A stretch of DNA of 51,304 nucleotides from contig CAJXFW010000003.1 in NCBI GenBank assembly GCA_913053655.1, positions 1 to 51,304 of the forward strand, read 5' to 3'. The notes under the pieces are model-generated. The model did not search any database. It saw nothing but the letters and a program-made list of their open reading frames with translations, and had not been told where the DNA came from. Shown one piece after another: positions 14,937 to 48,010 of the stretch. Source of the DNA: an uncultured Thiogranum sp. (GTDB lineage Bacteria; Pseudomonadota; Gammaproteobacteria; DSM-19610). The position numbers and the translations under genes are program-made. Position 1 is the first letter of the stretch. Each line of letters begins with the position of its first letter.

Positions 14937-15515
<579 letters not shown>

Positions 15516-15530
15516 TATACAACCATCCAA

Positions 15531-15648: not shown

Positions 15649-17136
15649 TTACGCGTCCTGTCTGGCCGAAAGTGGCAACGCGCCAATCGACTGGTGCGGG
15701 TCAGCCAGTGCGCCGGTAAGCATGGCCCGGTAGTCTTCAGCAAGACGTGCCATCCTCGGCTGTTTGAACAGGTCAGTGCAATATTCCCAGAACCCGGACA
15801 GATTGCCGTCCTTTATGTTGATACACAGAGACAGGTCGAACTTGCTGGTACCGTTCGATATCTTGATCGGCGTGACTTTAGCACCATGGATATGAAGCAC
15901 TTTTTCCGGCGTATTCTGTAATATAAACGCAACCTGGAACAGTGGTGTGCGAGAACGATCCTGATCCGGGTGCAACTCGGCAACAAGTTCTTCGAAGGGC
16001 ATATCCTGGTACATGTAGGCGTCCAGGGCGATTTTCTTCACGCGCTGTACAAGTTCCATAAACCCGGGATTCCCGGACAAATCCATTCGCAGCACGTTCG
16101 TATTAGTAACATATCCGATCAAAGGCTCCAGCTCCGGAAGCGTACGATTGGCAATAGGCGAACCTACCGAAATATCAGGTACCCCCGTATACCGATGCAA
16201 CAACGTATAGAGCACAGCTATCAGCAACATGAACAGGGTAATGCCATGCTCCCGGCAAAATCCGTGAACGGCTTCCGAGAGCCCGGGACCGAGATCAAAC
16301 TGCAACTTGCTTCCGCGGTCGCTTTGTATGGCCGGTCGGGGGAAATCTGACGGCAAGTCCAGCGGATCCAGGGAGCCGGACAGCTGTTCGCACCAGTAGC
16401 GTAACAGAGTCGTTCGCCGCTGACCGGAAAACAATGTGCGCTGATAGCGCGCAAAATCGCCGTACTGAAAAGGCAAATCAGCAAGCTCCGGTACCCGACC
16501 ACAACTGAAAGCCTCATAGCAGCGTGTCAGCTCATCGCGGAACACGCGACACGACCAGCCATCCGAAGCTATATGGTGGAGTACAATCAACAATACATGG
16601 TAGTTTTCCGCAAGCTTGACCAGCACTGATCTGAGAAACGGACCCGCCGACAAGTTAAAAGGGATCCCCGCCTCCTCTGATATCTTCCCGATGGCAAGTT
16701 TTTCCCTGTCCTGTCGGGGGCTGGATCCGAGATCCACGAAAGTGGTGGGCACTGCTGCAGACGTATTCCCGTCCTGTATCAATGCACCACCGGATTTTCT
16801 GATACGCATCCTGAGGACCTGATGGCGATCAAGGATTGACTGCAGTGCTGAATCCAGAGCGGGCAGATTGAGCGGCCCGTCTATGTACCAGGCCCGATAT
16901 ACATTGTATTGCGCACTGCCGGGTCGTAGTTGATCCAGAAACCACAGGCGCTGCTGATTATACGATAAAGGTGCCGGCAACCCCGAGGCATCCACTGCCG
17001 GCATACTGTCATCTGTTGACAGGATTCTACCCTTAAGCTGTCTCTTGAGCAGCTGCTGCTTAACCGGCGAAAGTTGCTTCAGCTTGTTCGCGAGAAGCAT
17101 CCGCAAATCGGATTCTGATCTGTGCCCTTTAACCAT
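15649..17136 (-). CDS. Stand-alone NRPS condensation-domain protein
   Basis: LSYNQQRLWFLDQL, HHIASDGWS (HHxxxDG), N-terminal NRPS-linker-like LKQLSPVKQQLLKRQLKGR. Confidence 0.88.
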   Translation of the reverse strand: MVKGHRSESDLRMLLANKLKQLSPVKQQLLKRQLKGRILSTDDSMPAVDASGLPAPLSYNQQRLWFLDQLRPGSAQYNVYRAWYIDGPLNLPALDSALQSILDRHQVLRMRIRKSGGALIQDGNTSAAVPTTFVDLGSSPRQDREKLAIGKISEEAGIPFNLSAGPFLRSVLVKLAENYHVLLIVLHHIASDGWSCRVFRDELTRCYEAFSCGRVPELADLPFQYGDFARYQRTLFSGQRRTTLLRYWCEQLSGSLDPLDLPSDFPRPAIQSDRGSKLQFDLGPGLSEAVHGFCREHGITLFMLLIAVLYTLLHRYTGVPDISVGSPIANRTLPELEPLIGYVTNTNVLRMDLSGNPGFMELVQRVKKIALDAYMYQDMPFEELVAELHPDQDRSRTPLFQVAFILQNTPEKVLHIHGAKVTPIKISNGTSKFDLSLCINIKDGNLSGFWEYCTDLFKQPRMARLAEDYRAMLTGALADPHQSIGALPLSARQDA

Positions 17137-17179
17137 TCTCTTGCCTGACGGTACCTTGCATCCCCGCGACGGCCGGCCC

Positions 17180-18916
17180 TTAAAACTCAGACATGTATTT
17201 TTCGTAAGGATCTACTTTTACGTTGATACAGGTTAGCTTGTCAGATTTCAATGCACGCTCCATGGCCGGACGAAGCTGTCCAGGGTATTCAACATACTCC
17301 CCGTGGGCGCCAAATGCTTCGGCAATCTTTTCATACCGGATTCCAGGCCCAAACATCGTTACGCGCTCATGTCCTTCCGGGTAAAGCTCGCGTTGTTTAC
17401 GACCACCCGAGAGGCCCTCATTGTTAACAATCACGACGATCAGTTTCACTGCGCAACGAATCGCCGTCTCCAGTTCCATTCCGGAAATACCAAAAGCCAT
17501 GTCGCCGCTTATGACCACTACAGGCCGTGACGGATCACCAAGCCCGGCACCAATACCGAACGGGATGCCCACCCCCATGCACCCGTTCGTACCCGCTGTA
17601 AATCTTGAAAACGGCGTCTGTCCGGGAATGACATTCTGAACAGCCATCATACTAATGTTCCCGTCTGCGACCAGGATCGTGTTCGCCGGCAATGACTCTC
17701 TCAGCTCTTCCATCAAACGATAGCTGGACATTGGAAGCCGGTTGGATACGCAACGTTCTTCCACCATGACCCTGTGCCTCTCACCAGCCGCTTCCAGGGT
17801 TTTATGCCAGAGTCCTCGAACAGTGAGCAGTTTCTGTTCCGGACGCCCATTAAGGGCTGCCTTCAATCCGGTGGTGAAATCTCCGGCGTCAGCAACAATG
17901 CCAAGGCAGACCTTTTTGTTCTTTACAACCTCTTCAGGATCAGTATCCACCTGGATAACTTTTGCGTTCGGATTAATCTGGCTTCCGAAGCGGAACGTCC
18001 AGTTGAGCCGTGCACCCAGCACAACAACGACATCCGCCGTCGCCTGCAACTGATGTTTGGCACGATTGAAGCAGAGCGGATGCTCATCAGAGAGTATACC
18101 TCGACCCATTGGAGAACTGATGAAGGCGATGTGCTGCTGCTCCAGTAATCCTGAAAGGTCATCAGGTATCAGACCCCATCGCGTCCCTCGTCCGAGGATA
18201 AATGCCGGCTGCCGCGCATTGCGCAGCAGTGCAGCCACCTGGTTGATCTCACCCTGGTTTATGATGACTTTATCCCTTTGACTGACCGTCGGCTCAACAG
18301 AGCCGCACGTGTATAACATGCGCAAAACACACTCTGGAACATCCAGGTATACCGGACCAGGGCGGCCGGTGACAGCCACATCAAATGCCTTGTTGATAAG
18401 GCACGAAATGTCGTCGGTATTATCAATATACCGGGTCCATTTAGTAATCGATTTATATAGTTCCGTTGCGTCAAGCTGCTGAAAGCCCTGCTGCCCCCCG
18501 GTGTCTCCTGTACGGTAACCACCAAGCACAATGACCGGCCAGGCATTGTCTCTTGCGACCAGCAATCCGGTAGCCACATTGGTAACAGCCGGACCAGCTG
18601 AAACGACCACAACGGCGTTTAGCCTGCCAACCGTGTAGTTGTGGGCAATAGCCATCAGTACGGCAGCCTGTTGGTGGCGGGTCCCGATGACACGGATACC
18701 CGCGCCAACAGCCGCTGCCAGCAGCTCCTGCACGGGGATACCGGAAACAGCGTAAATGTGTGTAACTCCATTGGCCAGGAGTGCCTGGACCACCAGCTGG
18801 TTTCCGCTCCTTCTTGTGCGACTGGCGATTAAATCCAGCAGCGCTCTTTTCTCCGGCGACAGGTTCTTTAGTCGATCACCGAGCCTGACTGGTTGAGGAG
18901 AAGGCCTGTCAGACAT
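17180..18916 (-). CDS. Thiamine-diphosphate-dependent enzyme (acetolactate synthase/oxalyl-CoA decarboxylase superfamily) with N-terminal NRPS-linker-like extension
   Basis: ThDP motif GDMAFGISGMELETAIRCAVKLIVVIVNN; N-terminal PYR domain with RHQQAA where the family usually has RHEQ.A. Confidence 0.85.
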   Translation of the reverse strand: MSDRPSPQPVRLGDRLKNLSPEKRALLDLIASRTRRSGNQLVVQALLANGVTHIYAVSGIPVQELLAAAVGAGIRVIGTRHQQAAVLMAIAHNYTVGRLNAVVVVSAGPAVTNVATGLLVARDNAWPVIVLGGYRTGDTGGQQGFQQLDATELYKSITKWTRYIDNTDDISCLINKAFDVAVTGRPGPVYLDVPECVLRMLYTCGSVEPTVSQRDKVIINQGEINQVAALLRNARQPAFILGRGTRWGLIPDDLSGLLEQQHIAFISSPMGRGILSDEHPLCFNRAKHQLQATADVVVVLGARLNWTFRFGSQINPNAKVIQVDTDPEEVVKNKKVCLGIVADAGDFTTGLKAALNGRPEQKLLTVRGLWHKTLEAAGERHRVMVEERCVSNRLPMSSYRLMEELRESLPANTILVADGNISMMAVQNVIPGQTPFSRFTAGTNGCMGVGIPFGIGAGLGDPSRPVVVISGDMAFGISGMELETAIRCAVKLIVVIVNNEGLSGGRKQRELYPEGHERVTMFGPGIRYEKIAEAFGAHGEYVEYPGQLRPAMERALKSDKLTCINVKVDPYEKYMSEF

Positions 18917-18925
18917 TAAATCAGT

Positions 18926-19804
18926 TCATTCCTGGTCATCTTCAGGCCCTGCCTGGCCGGTCGGTAACACAAGGCCGCCATGATTTTCGTTTAACAGGCG
19001 GGTGCAACTCTCAACACCTATGTTTCCAGGCCGGGTTACCGGTAACCGACCATCATCTTTTTTGAGCGCTGACATTGCTGCGTTGACCGCATCGTGTGCC
19101 GCAAACAGGCAGGGCGTACTGTAATTAACAAGCGACACCCCGGTGCCGGCTAACTGGCTCAGAGTTGCGGGCGGGGATTTTCCGCCGGCTATCTGGTTGA
19201 ATACCAGGGGACAGTCTATTTCCTTGCGCAAATCCCGCAGCAACTCCAGATCCCGTACACCCTCCACAAGCACAGCGTCCGCGCCTGCCTCAGAAAACCT
19301 GCGTGCACGAACCATAGCCTCATCGGGATCAGTAGCGTCGGTGCGCGCTACTACGAACAGATCTTTACGCGCATCCAGCACCCGCTGCAGCTTATCAACA
19401 AAGCTATCCAGACCCATAATCTGTTTGCCGTCCAGGTGACCACATTTACGCGGACGCTGCTGGTCTTCGAGTACCACCCCGGAGGCGCCAAGCGCTTCCA
19501 GCTGCCGGACCACATGGCAGGCAACTTCAACATCCGCGTAACCGTCATCAATATCGACGACAATATGGTGCGACGGCAGGACTATCCTGACGCGCTGCAC
19601 TAACGCCACAATATCAGGCCAGGCTATGTACCCTGCATCGGGAAGTCCATAGTAGCTTGCAGCAAAGCTGAAGCCACTGATAAAGATTCCATCAAAATGC
19701 CGGCCCGCGACCGACGCCGAAAACACATCATAGACGCCTATCAGAGGCACAATATCGCGCCGTAGAATATCAGCTCGTAAACGATTTCCGGGGCTTGACG
19801 TCAT
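18926..19804 (-). CDS. Isocitrate lyase/PEP mutase superfamily enzyme (methylisocitrate-lyase-like)
   Basis: VVDIDDGYAD, VVLEDQQRPRKCGHLDGKQ (KCGH lyase motif rather than the PEP mutase EDKxxxxxNS). Confidence 0.85.
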   Translation of the reverse strand: MTSSPGNRLRADILRRDIVPLIGVYDVFSASVAGRHFDGIFISGFSFAASYYGLPDAGYIAWPDIVALVQRVRIVLPSHHIVVDIDDGYADVEVACHVVRQLEALGASGVVLEDQQRPRKCGHLDGKQIMGLDSFVDKLQRVLDARKDLFVVARTDATDPDEAMVRARRFSEAGADAVLVEGVRDLELLRDLRKEIDCPLVFNQIAGGKSPPATLSQLAGTGVSLVNYSTPCLFAAHDAVNAAMSALKKDDGRLPVTRPGNIGVESCTRLLNENHGGLVLPTGQAGPEDDQE

Positions 19805-19809
19805 AAACC

Positions 19810-21741
19810 TTAATCCTTATCAGCTTCGTTGCTATCCTGACCGAGCTCCTCTGCCAGGAGCTGTGCCGCTTCTTCATCAGACAGCGATTCCAGTTTCTCC
19901 AGGAGGTCCGAAATAGCGTCCGGATCAATGAAGTCTGCCGACGCCGCTATATACTCAGCCAACCCGGCAACGGTGGGTTTGTGGAAAAGCGTAACTATCG
20001 GGAGTTCCACATGCATACTGGCCTGCAACCGTCCAATTACCTGCGTGCCACGAATCGAGTCACCACCCAGGCTAAAAAAATTATCGTTGACACCAATTCT
20101 GTCCTGGCCGAGAACCATTGAGAAGACATCTGCAATCGTCTGTTCCATATCATTTCGCGGAGCCACATAGCGGCGATCAAGATGTTCACCCAGGAGTTCA
20201 GCCAATCCGATGCGCTGAAGTTTTCCTGTTGCTCCTTTGGGGATCGCATCGACAATTAATATCTGACTGGGAACCTTGAAATCCGCCAGCTGCTCAAAGG
20301 CAAAAGTGCGAATGGTCGATTCGGTCAATCCGGATTCGGGCGATATAACCACGGCAGCTGCAAGATCCTCACCGAGAGTAGGATGCGGAACCGCAAACGC
20401 CACAGCCTGGCGAACGCCGGCAAGATCCATCAGGGTCTCATCGATTTCTCTCGGTTGTATATTCTCACCACCGCGATTAATGATTTCCTTCAGACGACCC
20501 GTAATAAACAGATAGCCATCACTATCAACATGACCCTGGTCACCTGTTCTGAACCAGCCGTCGTGAAAGCTCGCCCTGTTGGCCTCGGAGTTACTTTCAT
20601 ACCCGGCTGTAACATTCCCCCCACGGATAACAATTTCGCCTGTCGTACCCTGTTCCTGCAGACTACCAGCTTCATTCATAATCGCCACTTCGGGACCTGC
20701 GGGCAGACCCACGGATCCGGCCTTGCACTCACGAGGTGGCAATGGATTGCTCGTCATCTGGTGCGTGGCTTCGGTCATTCCGTAGGCTTCTATCACGGGA
20801 CAATCAAACATTGTTCCCAGCTCTTTCATTACGCTGGGTGCCAGTGCTGCGGAAGATGACCGGATAAATCTCAGCGAAGTATCAGTAAGTCTGTGGTCTC
20901 GTGATCTTGCATCGTCCAGTATCATCTGGTGCATTGTCGGTACCGCCGAATACCAGGTCGGGCGGAATATTTTCATCCAGTCGAAGAAATTATCCGGATC
21001 AAGCCCGACTGTACATACCACACGCCCCCCGGTAGCAAGCGGTGCGATCAAACCCGCAATCAAACCGTGAATGTGGAACAGCGGCATGATATTCAGCCCA
21101 CAATCATTGCCATCAAGCCGGAGCGTGCGAACAATATTTCCGGCAGATAAAGCGATGTTGGCATGTGTCAATGGAACCTGTTTCGGCTTTGATGTTGTTC
21201 CCGACGTATGCAGCACAAGGGCGACTGAGTTCTCCTCGACTGTGAGCGCTCCACCCGGAAGATCATCGCTCTCTATAACGGGTCTACCCGGGAATTTAAA
21301 AATTCCCGCAGCCGAATCCGGAGAGCAGACAAGTTCGATGACGGTGGCTCCATAAGACGGCGCCAGATCACGCGCCGGTGTATCCAGACGGGAATCCACC
21401 AGCAACACCCTGGGACGAAGATCGGAGAAATAGAATTCCAGTTCTTTGGCTCGGTAAGCCGGGTTTAACGGCGCGGCGCGGCCGGCACTTGCAGCCGCGA
21501 GAAAAGCCACCGCCATTTCGGGTCCGTTCGGCAGCAACAGAGCGACTCGATCAGCAGGACGCACGCCGGCCGCCTTCAGCATGTGTACAGTAGAGGATAC
21601 TTGCTCCCACAAGCATTTGTAGGTGAGCGCCTGACGAGCGGGTGCCTCCAGAGCAGGCATAGCCGACAGCGCATCCGCCTGTTGCTCCAGTAGCTCTGGT
21701 AGTGTCATGAACGGAAAGAAGGAATTTTCAGCGTAGCTCAT
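19810..21741 (-). CDS. AMP-forming ligase (oxalate-CoA-ligase-like/adenylation) with C-terminal peptidyl carrier protein domain
   Basis: LHTSGTTSKPKQVPLTHAN, YGMTEATHQM, TGDQGHVDSDGYLFITGRLKEIINRGGENIQP; carrier motif NFFSLGGDSIRGTQVI. Confidence 0.9.
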   Translation of the reverse strand: MSYAENSFFPFMTLPELLEQQADALSAMPALEAPARQALTYKCLWEQVSSTVHMLKAAGVRPADRVALLLPNGPEMAVAFLAAASAGRAAPLNPAYRAKELEFYFSDLRPRVLLVDSRLDTPARDLAPSYGATVIELVCSPDSAAGIFKFPGRPVIESDDLPGGALTVEENSVALVLHTSGTTSKPKQVPLTHANIALSAGNIVRTLRLDGNDCGLNIMPLFHIHGLIAGLIAPLATGGRVVCTVGLDPDNFFDWMKIFRPTWYSAVPTMHQMILDDARSRDHRLTDTSLRFIRSSSAALAPSVMKELGTMFDCPVIEAYGMTEATHQMTSNPLPPRECKAGSVGLPAGPEVAIMNEAGSLQEQGTTGEIVIRGGNVTAGYESNSEANRASFHDGWFRTGDQGHVDSDGYLFITGRLKEIINRGGENIQPREIDETLMDLAGVRQAVAFAVPHPTLGEDLAAAVVISPESGLTESTIRTFAFEQLADFKVPSQILIVDAIPKGATGKLQRIGLAELLGEHLDRRYVAPRNDMEQTIADVFSMVLGQDRIGVNDNFFSLGGDSIRGTQVIGRLQASMHVELPIVTLFHKPTVAGLAEYIAASADFIDPDAISDLLEKLESLSDEEAAQLLAEELGQDSNEADKD

Positions 21742-22025: not shown

Positions 22026-23522
22026 CTAGTGGTCTTTCCCGTCAAGACCCGCCTGTGCCAGCGCCACAGCCCTGAATATTGCACGCCCCTTGTTCATGGT
22101 CTCGGCCCATTCATTCTCCGGCACGGAGTCAGCCACAATACCGGCACCGGCCTGTATATTCAGCGTGCCGTCCTTGATCACCGCGGTGCGGATAGCAATG
22201 GCGGTATCCATATTGCCGGACCATGACAGATAACCCACGGCGCCGGCATACACGCCGCGCTTGACCGGCTCAAGTTCATCGATAATCTCCATAGCACGTA
22301 TCTTTGGCGCACCACTGACGGTGCCGGCCGGAAAAGTAGCGCGCAAAACATCGATAGCGGACATATCGTCCTTGATGCGTCCGGTTACGTTGGAAACGAT
22401 GTGCATGACATGCGAATACCGTTCGACAATCATTTTATCGGTCAGCTCAACGCTTCCGATCCGGCTGACCCGCCCGGCATCGTTGCGGCCAAGATCGATC
22501 AACATCAGGTGTTCGGCAAGTTCTTTGGGATCGGCCAGCAGATCAGCCTCCAGCGCCTGGTCTTCGGCTTCGTCCTTGCCGCGCGGTCGCGTACCGGCAA
22601 TCGGTCGCACGGTGACAACGCCGTCTTCCAGACGCACCAGTATCTCCGGCGACGAACCCACGACATGGAAATCGTCGAGGTCCAGGTAGAACATGTACGG
22701 TGAGGGATTGAGTCCGCGTAGCGCTCGATACAGGTCCAGCGGTGGCGCATGAAAAGGCACCGATAGACGCTGTGACAGCACCACCTGCATGGCATCACCC
22801 TCAACAATGTATTCCTTAACGCGCTCTACAGCAGCTTCAAAACCCTCACGCGTGAACCCGGACACAAAATTTTCTTCCGTCACCTGGCGCGACTCTTTCA
22901 GCGCACCGGGTATCACCACCGGCCGGCGCATGGCGTCCATCAGCTGACCAAGCCGCACCTGTCCCGCATCCCAGGCGTCAGACCTTTCTGAGTCCATATG
23001 CACTATCAGCTGCAGCTTGCCGCTGAGGTTATCGAAAACCACGACTTCATCCGACACCATCAACAGTATATCCGGGGTCTGCAGGGTATCCTCGTTCACT
23101 CCGTCTCTGAGCCTGGACTCTATGTAACGTACCGTATCATAGCCAAAATACCCGACCAGTCCGCCAGCGAAACGCGGCATACCATCAAGCTGCGGCACCC
23201 GGTAACGCTGCTGAAATTCTTCTATCCATTGCAGGGGTTCCGGGCACTGTTCCTCTTCGACAAGGCGACCGTCAGTATGTAGCTGGATGTGCTCGCCATA
23301 GACCCGCACAACGGTACGGCACGGTAAGCCGATAATCGAATAGCGGCCCCACTTCTCGCCACCCTGCACTGACTCGAACAGATAGGAATACGGGCCATTG
23401 GCCAGCTTCAGATAAGTACTTAAGGGGGTGTCGAGATCAGCCAGTACTTCACGGGTCACCGGAATACGGTTGTACCCTTCCCCGGCCAGCTGTTGAAATT
23501 TTTCAGGTGTCATATTCCTCAC
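22026..23522 (-). CDS. trpE: Anthranilate synthase component I
   Basis: [44 protein letters not shown]. Confidence 0.96.
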
Positions 23523-27730: not shown

Positions 27731-31978
<4,248 letters not shown>

Positions 31979-32442
31979 GCTCTGCTGATCCGTCCGATCT
32001 GATTGTCTGAATGCGCTTTCAAGACGCCCGAATGGGGGCTTGCGCGGTGCCCTGCCACGCTCCACTGGTAGCGGCCATTCAGGTCAAAATCTTAGCCATC
32101 AGGTTAATACCAAATGTGTGAAGTGACTCACAATTCCTGTGTTCTTCCACAGGCCGGTTACCCGTTGTGTATTTTTTGTTCAGTAAGCAAGACGGGGATA
32201 CGTCAACAGACGCAGGTGGGGTTGCCGGCTGTTCAATGTCGTAGTGTTGGCCGGCTGATTTATTCCTGGCTGCTTCTCACAGGGATAAAGTCTGATACTG
32301 TTTTTTTACATGCATTAACGAAGCCACTCTCATTTGAGACTTAAAAAACAGGCCTGAATTGCATAAAGGGGTTTCACTTTTTTTTCTTTGTGCTATCTTT
32401 GCGCGGTCACGTCCCAGACAACTACTGTAAGGAGTACATTGA

Positions 32443-45143: not shown

Positions 45144-48010
45144 GTTTCAATCCACGCACCCGCGTGGGGCGCGACGTTTAGCTAACAGCAGTCTCGATTC
45201 GCTCGAAGGGTTTCAATCCACGCGCCCCGCACGGGGCGTGCCCTGGGAGCGTGCCGTAGAGAGTAACGATATAGTCAGTTTCAATCCACGCGCCCCGCAC
45301 GGGGCGCGACATAATTTACTAACGCGCGGATTACCCACACCGTTTGTTTCAATCCACGCGCCCCGCACGGGGCGCGACGCCGGAACGATGAGCGAATATA
45401 CCCCGGGCATGAGCGTTTCAATCCACGCGCCCCGCACGGGGCGCGACTTATTTATTTATTCTCATTTTATGTATTTATGTATGTTTCAATCCACGCGCCC
45501 CGCACGGGGCGCGACATTGGCCGAACGCGGATGATATTGCTGAGGATTTGTTTCAATCCACGCGCCCCGCACGGGGCGCGACGACGACGAACGCCAGCGC
45601 GTGTTTGACGGAATAGGTTTCAATCCACGCGCCCCGCACGGGGCGCGACGTTCTCTGGATTGTTCTCGCTCCACCAGTTCCAGAAAGTTTCAATCCACGC
45701 GCCCCGCACGGGGCGCGACTCTGAAATTATCATTTATCGGCTATAAACAGTATGTTTCAATCCACGCGCCCCGCACGGGGCGCGACGTATCTCGGTGCAA
45801 CCGTGGCGGTGGGAAAATAATGTTTCAATCCACGCGCCCCGCACGGGGCGCGACTCGATTTGTCGGTCAATATTGGATAGTTTGATAGAGTTTCAATCCA
45901 CGCGCCCCGCACGGGGCGCGACACGATATCAATTGACGACTCAGAATTGGGTAACATCGTTTCAATCCACGCGCCCCGCACGGGGCGCGACCGTACTTGA
46001 ATTGTTGGCGCTTGGCAGTCAGGTTGTTTCAATCCACGCGCCCCGCACGGGGCGCGACAGGGCACTAACCGTGCCGTATTGAATTTCAGCATGTTTCAAT
46101 CCACGCGCCCCGCACGGGGCGCGACCAATTCCTTATCGTTTAAACCTGGGGAATTGATTGTTTCAATCCACGCGCCCCGCACGGGGCGCGACCCTTCAGT
46201 TTGGATTCAAATGCCGACATCAATCCGTTTCAATCCACGCGCCCCGCACGGGGCGCGACTTTGTACTTGTTCTAGTGTTTGTTTATTGGATTCGGTTTCA
46301 ATCCACGCGCCCCGCACGGGGCGCGACTTTCCCCATGGCTCGTTCGAGGATCCCTATGGGGTTTCAATCCACGCGCCCCGCACGGGGCGCGACGGTTCGG
46401 GTGATGATGGTCTGTGGCGCTTCAAGCAGGTTTCAATCCACGCGCCCCGCACGGGGCGCGACCCTGATAAACTTTGCAACACGCCTGGCAAAAGTAGTTT
46501 CAATCCACGCGCCCCGCACGGGGCGCGACAGCCATTCCTTGGGGTTATTGCCCGTCGGGTATGGTTTCAATCCACGCGCCCCGCACGGGGCGCGACGGGG
46601 ATCAGTGTGCTATTGATCATACCGCGCGGTGTTTCAATCCACGCGCCCCGCACGGGGCGCGACACAGGCACGCCGTGGCGCAATTATCCACCAGCAGTTT
46701 CAATCCACGCGCCCCGCACGGGGCGCGACAATATACCGGCATCCAGTTCCTGTATGGTTAATGTGTTTCAATCCACGCGCCCCGCACGGGGCGCGACCTT
46801 CTCTATAAAGCATAACTGGCGCGGGTATGGTCGTTTCAATCCACGCGCCCCGCACGGGGCGCGACTGTAATGTGTCGATATATTCAGGCGATTGCCCTGA
46901 GTTTCAATCCACGCGCCCCGCACGGGGCGCGACGTCGCGATCGGCGTAGGGACCGTGCTCTACAACGCGTTTCAATCCACGCGCCCCGCACGGGGCGCGA
47001 CCATAAACATTTAAGCATAATTTCACCTATAATAAGTTTCAATCCACGCGCCCCGCACGGGGCGCGACCGGTCTGTCGTGGCGGGCTGTGTTCGGTTTTA
47101 CAGTTTCAATCCACGCGCCCCGCACGGGGCGCGACCAAAGCATTGTACTGGCGAGAAGGGATTAAAGTTGTTTCAATCCACGCGCCCCGCACGGGGCGCG
47201 ACAGCAGGACATTAAAGCCAAGGTCATGGCCATACAGTTTCAATCCACGCGCCCCGCACGGGGCGCGACGTGGCCCAGACAAAAGGTTACTGGTACATCC
47301 CGGTTTCAATCCACGCGCCCCGCACGGGGCGCGACATTGGCTGTATCGCCCCCGGCGAACGATTGAACGAGTTTCAATCCACGCGCCCCGCACGGGGCGC
47401 GACATCCAAAAAAACACACCAGACAACGGGTCATATCGTTTCAATCCACGCGCCCCGCACGGGGCGCGACCTGCGGCTATTTGTATGGCTGCGGTGGATA
47501 AAGGGTTTCAATCCACGCGCCCCGCACGGGGCGCGACCTGGTGCGATCACCACGAATGTACCGGCATTGGCTGTTTCAATCCACGCGCCCCGCACGGGGC
47601 GCGACCGGGCAGACGAATGGCATTTATTATCCTTAAAGCGTTTCAATCCACGCGCCCCGCACGGGGCGCGACTACGTGACGGTGACGGTGTCACCGACCG
47701 TATATTTGTTTCAATCCACGCGCCCCGCACGGGGCGCGACTCGCGCGAACGCGAGCCATCGGCTTCGCTTACAATGTTTCAATCCACGCGCCCCGCACGG
47801 GGCGCGACTTTCAGCTTTAATCGTAGCTATTTCAGCTTTAAATGTTTCAATCCACGCGCCCCGCACGGGGCGCGACCGGTAGATTCAACGGCCGCACGCC
47901 GCAATGTTGGTTTCAATCCACGCGCCCCGCACGGGGCGCGACCGGGGTATTGAATAGGCAATAATACCAATAATAGCGTTTCAATCCACGCGCCCCGCAC
48001 GGGGCGCGAC
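45144..48010 (-). CRISPR. CRISPR array, type I-C-like, 43 repeats of 33 bp / 42 spacers
   Basis: + strand repeat GTTTCAATCCACGCGCCCCGCACGGGGCGCGAC; transcribed orientation GTCGCGCCCCGTGCGGGGCGCGTGGATTGAAAC. Hand-counted unit starts from 45144 to 47978, average period ~67.5 bp; first two (leader-distal) repeats are degenerate. Confidence 0.98.

Follow-up and report, generated by a model that had tools for sequence, protein, structure and literature searches.

A rare, conserved NRPS-like gene cassette between trpE and trpG of an uncultured Thiogranum sp. and its predicted use of carrier-bound oxalate

Between trpE and trpG of an uncultured Thiogranum sp. lies a real, conserved and rare cassette of four genes that is under purifying selection. 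It encodes an AMP-forming adenylating (A) domain fused to a carrier protein (A-PCP), a lyase of the ICL/PEPM family, a ThDP enzyme and a free-standing condensation (C) domain. The ligase, lyase and ThDP enzyme families separately indicate oxalate, making it the common theme upstream of the C domain, and the assignment of oxalate is well supported at the level of sequence. We propose that the cassette as a whole encodes an oxalate-fed minimal NRPS-like assembly line, a reading to which we give a probability of about one half.

In this assembly line, the lyase would hydrolyze oxaloacetate to oxalate and acetate, as its motifs suggest. The A domain would then adenylate oxalate and load it onto its own carrier as oxalyl-S-PCP; the family placement of the A domain and its fusion to a carrier are observed, and the substrate is predicted from them. 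The ThDP enzyme, putatively recruited through an N-terminal docking helix like that of the C protein, could decarboxylate oxalyl-S-PCP, retain the C1 acyl anion and add it to an aldehyde to form a 2-hydroxyacyl-S-PCP. The free-standing C domain might finally couple the 2-hydroxyacyl group to an amine (or alcohol), with release of the product.

Locus and recurrence of the cassette

The window, a stretch of 51,304 nucleotides (contig CAJXFW010000003.1 of assembly GCA_913053655.1), carries the four cassette genes intact and all on the - strand. They run from A-PCP through the lyase and the ThDP enzyme to the C domain with intergenic gaps of 5, 9 and 43 nt, and trpD and trpC come after trpG:

22026..23522, - strand: trpE, directly upstream of the cassette (284 nt gap)
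19810..21741, - strand: A-PCP gene (643 aa; Pfam AMP-binding, AMP-binding_C and PP-binding)
18926..19804, - strand: ICL/PEPM-family lyase gene (292 aa; Pfam PEP_mutase/ICL)
17180..18916, - strand: ThDP enzyme gene (578 aa; Pfam TPP_enzyme N/M/C)
15649..17136, - strand: free-standing C domain gene (495 aa; Pfam Condensation)
14937..15530, - strand: trpG, directly downstream of the cassette (118 nt gap)

The original prediction had described four tightly spaced same-strand genes at this site as a non-standard NRPS-like cassette for a small molecule; its coordinates and gene order proved exact, and the description is borne out. The main Pfam matches lie far over their cut-offs for all four proteins, with the ICL match barely over. 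Cassette GC content (53-56%) is similar to that of neighboring genes, and GC3 is somewhat reduced in three of the genes (A-PCP, lyase and ThDP enzyme). A scan of the cassette stretch for sigma-70-like promoters returned no more sites than shuffled sequences did.

All four genes recur in the same order in an Ectothiorhodospiraceae MAG (G376, CAMYMI010000027.1), with identities to the window of 79% for A-PCP, 83% for the lyase, 72% for the ThDP enzyme and 68% for the C domain, and dN/dS of 0.13-0.20 across the cassette genes. That all four occur together in a genome this distant, with identities of 68-83% and under such constraint, argues that the set is not a chance arrangement. Directly after its C gene, G376 encodes another NRPS protein, of which a docking helix and the start of a C domain precede the contig end. 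A second genome of the same family (G394) has A-PCP and the ThDP enzyme followed directly by a C-A NRPS. Starter machinery thus stands upstream of further NRPS proteins in related genomes, which suggests that it can also serve as a loading module. Between its ligase and ThDP enzyme genes, G394 lacks the lyase gene, and oxalate supply is therefore not always part of the set. These two were the only cassettes with a ThDP enzyme found beyond the window, in samples totaling more than a thousand genomes with overlaps counted; all 16 other genomes of the window's genus that were searched lacked a match, as did most samples of the class and phylum.

Seven genomes of the genus have trpG at most about 30 nt after trpE. 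In others the space is occupied, by a GMC-oxidoreductase-like gene in two genomes (G005 and G015) and in a third (G003) by an 8.8-kb stretch containing an integrase-like ORF, gene types being read by eye. Since different DNA follows trpE in other genomes, the cassette is one of several insertions there. The DNA 3' of trpE (window position 22026) is more generally a variable insertion point in the genus, as compared across five loci (L021, L029-L032), and antiporter-like genes are also among its inserts. A phage or mobile origin was considered and rejected: lyase relatives were absent from the viral contigs searched, phage records gave only acetolactate-synthase-like matches of about 25% identity, and the search for attachment-site repeats around the insertion returned a single 9-nt match.

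Ligase and lyase as oxalate-type enzymes

Four features of the ligase and the lyase bear on the predicted supply and loading of oxalate:

21073..21075, - strand: His223 of the A domain, counterpart of AtAAE3 His214 (PLFHIHGL), from alignment
20056..20058, - strand: phosphopantetheine Ser562 of the PCP (LGGDS), from motif
19436..19447, - strand: KCGH catalytic motif of the lyase branch, residues 120-123, from motif
19175..19177, - strand: Ser210 of the lyase (GGKSP), at the position of the Ser in solved OAH, from alignment

Oxalate-CoA ligases take the top three places among solved matches to the A domain (406, 403 and 339 bits), compared to 210 bits for malonyl-CoA synthetase, the best non-oxalate CoA synthetase. 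Linear gramicidin synthetase scores 287 bits to A-PCP in a match that spans both the A and carrier domains. FHIHGL (within PLFHIHGL), RSSSA and ATHQMTSNPLPP align with AtAAE3, the plant oxalyl-CoA synthetase 6qjz and the oxalate-CoA ligase 8aff, and PLFHIHGL, RSSSA and ATHQMTSNPLPP are kept with small changes in the enzymes of the window, G376 and G394 and in a free-standing Methylobacterium relative. In AtAAE3, His214, Ser289 and His319 contact oxalate. Best solved matches and signature stretches therefore liken the A domain to oxalate-CoA ligases such as AtAAE3, PCS60 and the Lathyrus oxalyl-CoA synthetase, but unlike these it is fused to an NRPS carrier, and its predicted acyl acceptor is the PCP rather than CoA. 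A-PCP thus joins an adenylating domain (Pfam AMP-binding) to a carrier (Pfam PP-binding) whose LGGDS motif holds the serine for phosphopantetheine. The carrier is a single one of NRPS type (DNFFSLGGDS), and the protein has a C-terminal acidic helix, LLEKLESLSDEEAAQLL. The closest free-standing relatives of the ligase (about 52-56% identical) are found in G144, G100, Methylobacterium bullatum and Rhodobacteraceae SC52, and in all four genomes a PanE/ApbA-type reductase adjoins the ligase gene or lies within a few kb of it. PanE2 of M. extorquens, named for the PanE/ApbA fold family, is a characterized oxalyl-CoA reductase (PMC8411744). From this family placement, we consider oxalate the probable substrate of the A domain.

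The lyase reads EDQQRPRKCGHLDGK, with EDQQRPRKCGH where PEP mutase has EDKxxxxxNS. The original prediction had noted KCGH in place of the mutase motif, as is read directly in the sequence, and on these two features a PepM-Ppd phosphonate pair is rejected. At the position of Ser210, solved OAH has HSP, dimethylmalate lyase and methylisocitrate lyase have ATP, and petal death protein has KTP; we take a serine here to be a published marker of OAH. The lyase is like fungal OAH (3lye) in its KCGH-type motif and OAH-position serine but differs in being bacterial and distant overall. OAH is not its closest solved relative: 3lye (78.9 bits) is outscored by petal death protein (120.7 bits) and by several entries of (methyl)isocitrate-lyase type. 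In Pfam, the PEP_mutase match is full length, whereas the ICL match is partial and weak. The lyase is predicted to be OAH-like and to produce oxalate. Where the original prediction left the substrate open and listed oxalate among several acids for assay, oxalate is now indicated; its cassette type and its dismissal of a PepM-Ppd pair both stand.

Relatives of the lyase with 48-59% identity occur outside such cassettes in actinobacteria, Legionellales, Opitutales and Lentisphaerae, and its role may therefore be broader or different. Those of 56-59% identity sit on megaplasmids of Streptomyces, Embleya and Kitasatospora without the remaining cassette (L041-L045); the only other cassette-type sequence near these plasmid lyases is a 31% AMP-binding stretch about 11 kb away in L043. 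In a Legionellales MAG (L011, 8393-10774), a 49% relative directly follows a different AMP ligase in surroundings that resemble a surface-sugar gene cluster.

ThDP enzyme, C domain and alternative products

The third and fourth proteins share an N-terminal helix, listed here with one active-site feature of each:

18812..18886, - strand: N-terminal NRPS-style docking helix of the ThDP enzyme (LGDRLKNLSPEKRALL), from shuffle comparison
18671..18673, - strand: Gln82 replacing the ThDP-activating Glu (RHQQ for RHEQ), from alignment and PMC11271303
17017..17097, - strand: N-terminal docking helix of the C protein (LANKLKQLSPVKQQLLKRQ), from shuffle comparison
16558..16578, - strand: HHxxxDG catalytic motif of the C domain, as HHIASDG, from motif

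Domain make-up, ThDP motif and best matches liken the ThDP enzyme to oxalyl-CoA decarboxylase and 2-hydroxyacyl-CoA lyase-synthase (HACL), which are its best solved matches (302 bits), but it differs from both in having Gln for Glu, a docking helix and no CoA lid. Oxalyl-CoA decarboxylase is likewise its best-scoring NCBIfam model, although scores fall under the curated cut-offs (333.8 bits versus 557; 311.9 versus 739.4). The N-terminal extension, LxxRLxxLSPxKRxL, resembles the N-terminal helix of C proteins of the same cassettes (across 12 comparisons, between 0 and 123 of 5000 shuffles reached the observed score); E. coli Oxc, Gcl and IlvI lack this extension. The ThDP-activating Glu, Glu50 in ApbHACL/S (PMC11271303), is Gln in all three cassette enzymes (window, G376 and G394). 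Elsewhere this site holds Glu in E. coli Oxc, IlvI and a relative in G230, and Val in E. coli Gcl. Glyoxylate carboligase is functional with this Val.

In MeOXC, residues Y134, E135, Y497 and S568 hold a water network close to the intermediate. Substitutions that turn this decarboxylase into a carboligase, which makes glycolyl-CoA directly from oxalyl-CoA and formaldehyde, include E135G, Y497F and S568G (PMC8411744). The counterparts of Y134/E135 are F145/Q146 in the window enzyme, the HACL pattern, and are F and Q in all three cassette members (Y/E in E. coli Oxc). The Tyr that follows NNGG in decarboxylases (MeOXC Y497) has no counterpart in the cassette enzymes, and the C-terminal CoA-covering lid that bears S568 is missing in the window and G376 proteins. 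Of the features of oxalyl-CoA decarboxylase, the catalytic Glu, the Tyr/Glu pair and the C-terminal lid were thus not found. Taken together, the docking helix, Gln82, F145/Q146 and the missing Tyr and lid make the protein look like a carboligase acting on oxalyl-S-PCP. The unexplained Gln is the main caution, since its presence in all three members could mean that the ThDP chemistry is weak or different, and we judge carboligation rather than plain formylation to be an even call. A structure of the ThDP enzyme predicted from three sequences had a mean pLDDT of 56, too low a quality for fold comparison.

Were the ThDP enzyme a plain decarboxylase, it would yield formyl-S-PCP, from which the C domain could pass a formyl group to an amine. 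Its best NCBIfam model is in keeping with such N-formylation, and MeOXC releases formyl-CoA at 98 per second (PMC8411744), but the residues that protonate the intermediate in the decarboxylase (Y134, E135, Y497 and S568) are changed or missing here, as in HACL or the engineered carboligase. Formyl-tetrahydrofolate is also a cheaper supply of formyl groups, and we regard N-formylation as unlikely. The same may be said of a different small acid on the A domain (e.g., glyoxylate, malonate or a 2-oxo acid) with another ThDP carboligation. On this reading, likeness to oxalate enzymes would be at family level only. The substrate specificity of AMP ligases and ThDP enzymes shifts readily, and the solved enzymes are only distantly similar in sequence; against this, three separate families indicate one acid, and the ligase signature stretches are retained across members.

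The lyase could instead be ICL-like and make glyoxylate, to which the ThDP enzyme would add the C1 anion of oxalyl-S-PCP, giving hydroxymalonyl-S-PCP. This would explain the pairing of both carbon-carbon bond enzymes, through a lyase product that serves as aldehyde acceptor, and the KCGH-type motif is common to methylisocitrate lyases. Such a tartronyl route nevertheless appears very unlikely given the OAH-type serine and an ICL match that is partial and weak next to the full-length PEP_mutase match. Just as improbable is a catalytically dead ThDP enzyme retained as a mere scaffold, with the C domain making oxalyl amides from oxalyl-S-PCP and an amine: Gln for the activating Glu in every member would fit, but the enzyme keeps the GD...NN motif for Mg/ThDP binding and most of its fold core, and dN/dS of the gene is 0.18.

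Returning to the oxalate-fed line, its C domain and the orthologue of this domain carry HHxxxDG as HHIASDG. Like OaaC of gut bacteria (PMC13142362), it would be a free C domain that joins one carrier-bound acyl group to a small amine, but OaaC has (D/H)HxxxDS and fatty acyl donors, whereas the cassette motif is the canonical HHxxxDG and the predicted donor is C1/C2-derived. The Gly variant also occurs in 17% of the OaaC clade (PMC13142362). The window genome (85% complete as assembled) encodes a 4'-PPTase of Sfp length (an ACPS-family protein in a 249-aa open frame, G000:C24) and no second condensation domain; a second carrier or full elongation module was not found there, whereas G394 and G376 have more NRPS after the cassette. 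With no other condensation domain, the line there appears to stop with its one C domain, from which the product would be released to a free amine or alcohol. Release as an amide is, on balance, the favored outcome. Neither an aldehyde source nor an amine partner is encoded within the cassette.

Relation to known pathways

The original prediction would have fallen to a match with a characterized cluster of known product; neither such a match nor a published description of the four-gene set was found in the literature searched, of which coverage is incomplete. Oxaloacetase and oxalyl-CoA synthetase were paired deliberately in engineered yeast (PMC12686821), and C1 extension by MeOXC4 and HACL (PMC8411744, PMC11271303) resembles the predicted course from an oxalyl or formyl thioester through a C1 anion to aldehyde addition. 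Unlike those pathways, which use CoA thioesters and, for MeOXC4, an engineered enzyme, the cassette would be natural and carrier-protein-bound. Tentatively, we suggest a natural carrier-bound C1 umpolung module for peptide assembly, in which oxalate made on site becomes oxalyl-S-PCP and is then converted to 2-hydroxyacyl-S-PCP by a docking-equipped, Glu-less ThDP carboligase.

If so, this would be an unrecognized NRPS starter route, in which oxalate and aldehydes give 2-hydroxyacyl (or formyl) units bound to a carrier protein rather than CoA, and a new start for nonribosomal peptides that anticipates synthetic oxalyl-CoA/HACL C1-extension chemistry. It would provide a natural catalyst for comparison with the C1-extension enzymes being engineered from oxalyl-CoA decarboxylase and a handle for genome mining, namely an oxalate-ligase-type A-PCP beside a ThDP enzyme with docking helix and Gln for Glu. 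The cassette would also offer a directly testable example of a ThDP enzyme that lacks the activating Glu.

Elsewhere in the window, a CRISPR array with repeat GTTTCAATCCACGCGCCCCGCACGGGGCGCGAC and a period of about 67 bp occupies positions 45277-47942. A 1444-aa protein (27731-32065) has, as read by eye, cNMP-binding and rhodanese-like N-terminal parts, followed by a long Q/E-rich coiled coil and a sulfatase-modifying-factor-like C-terminus.
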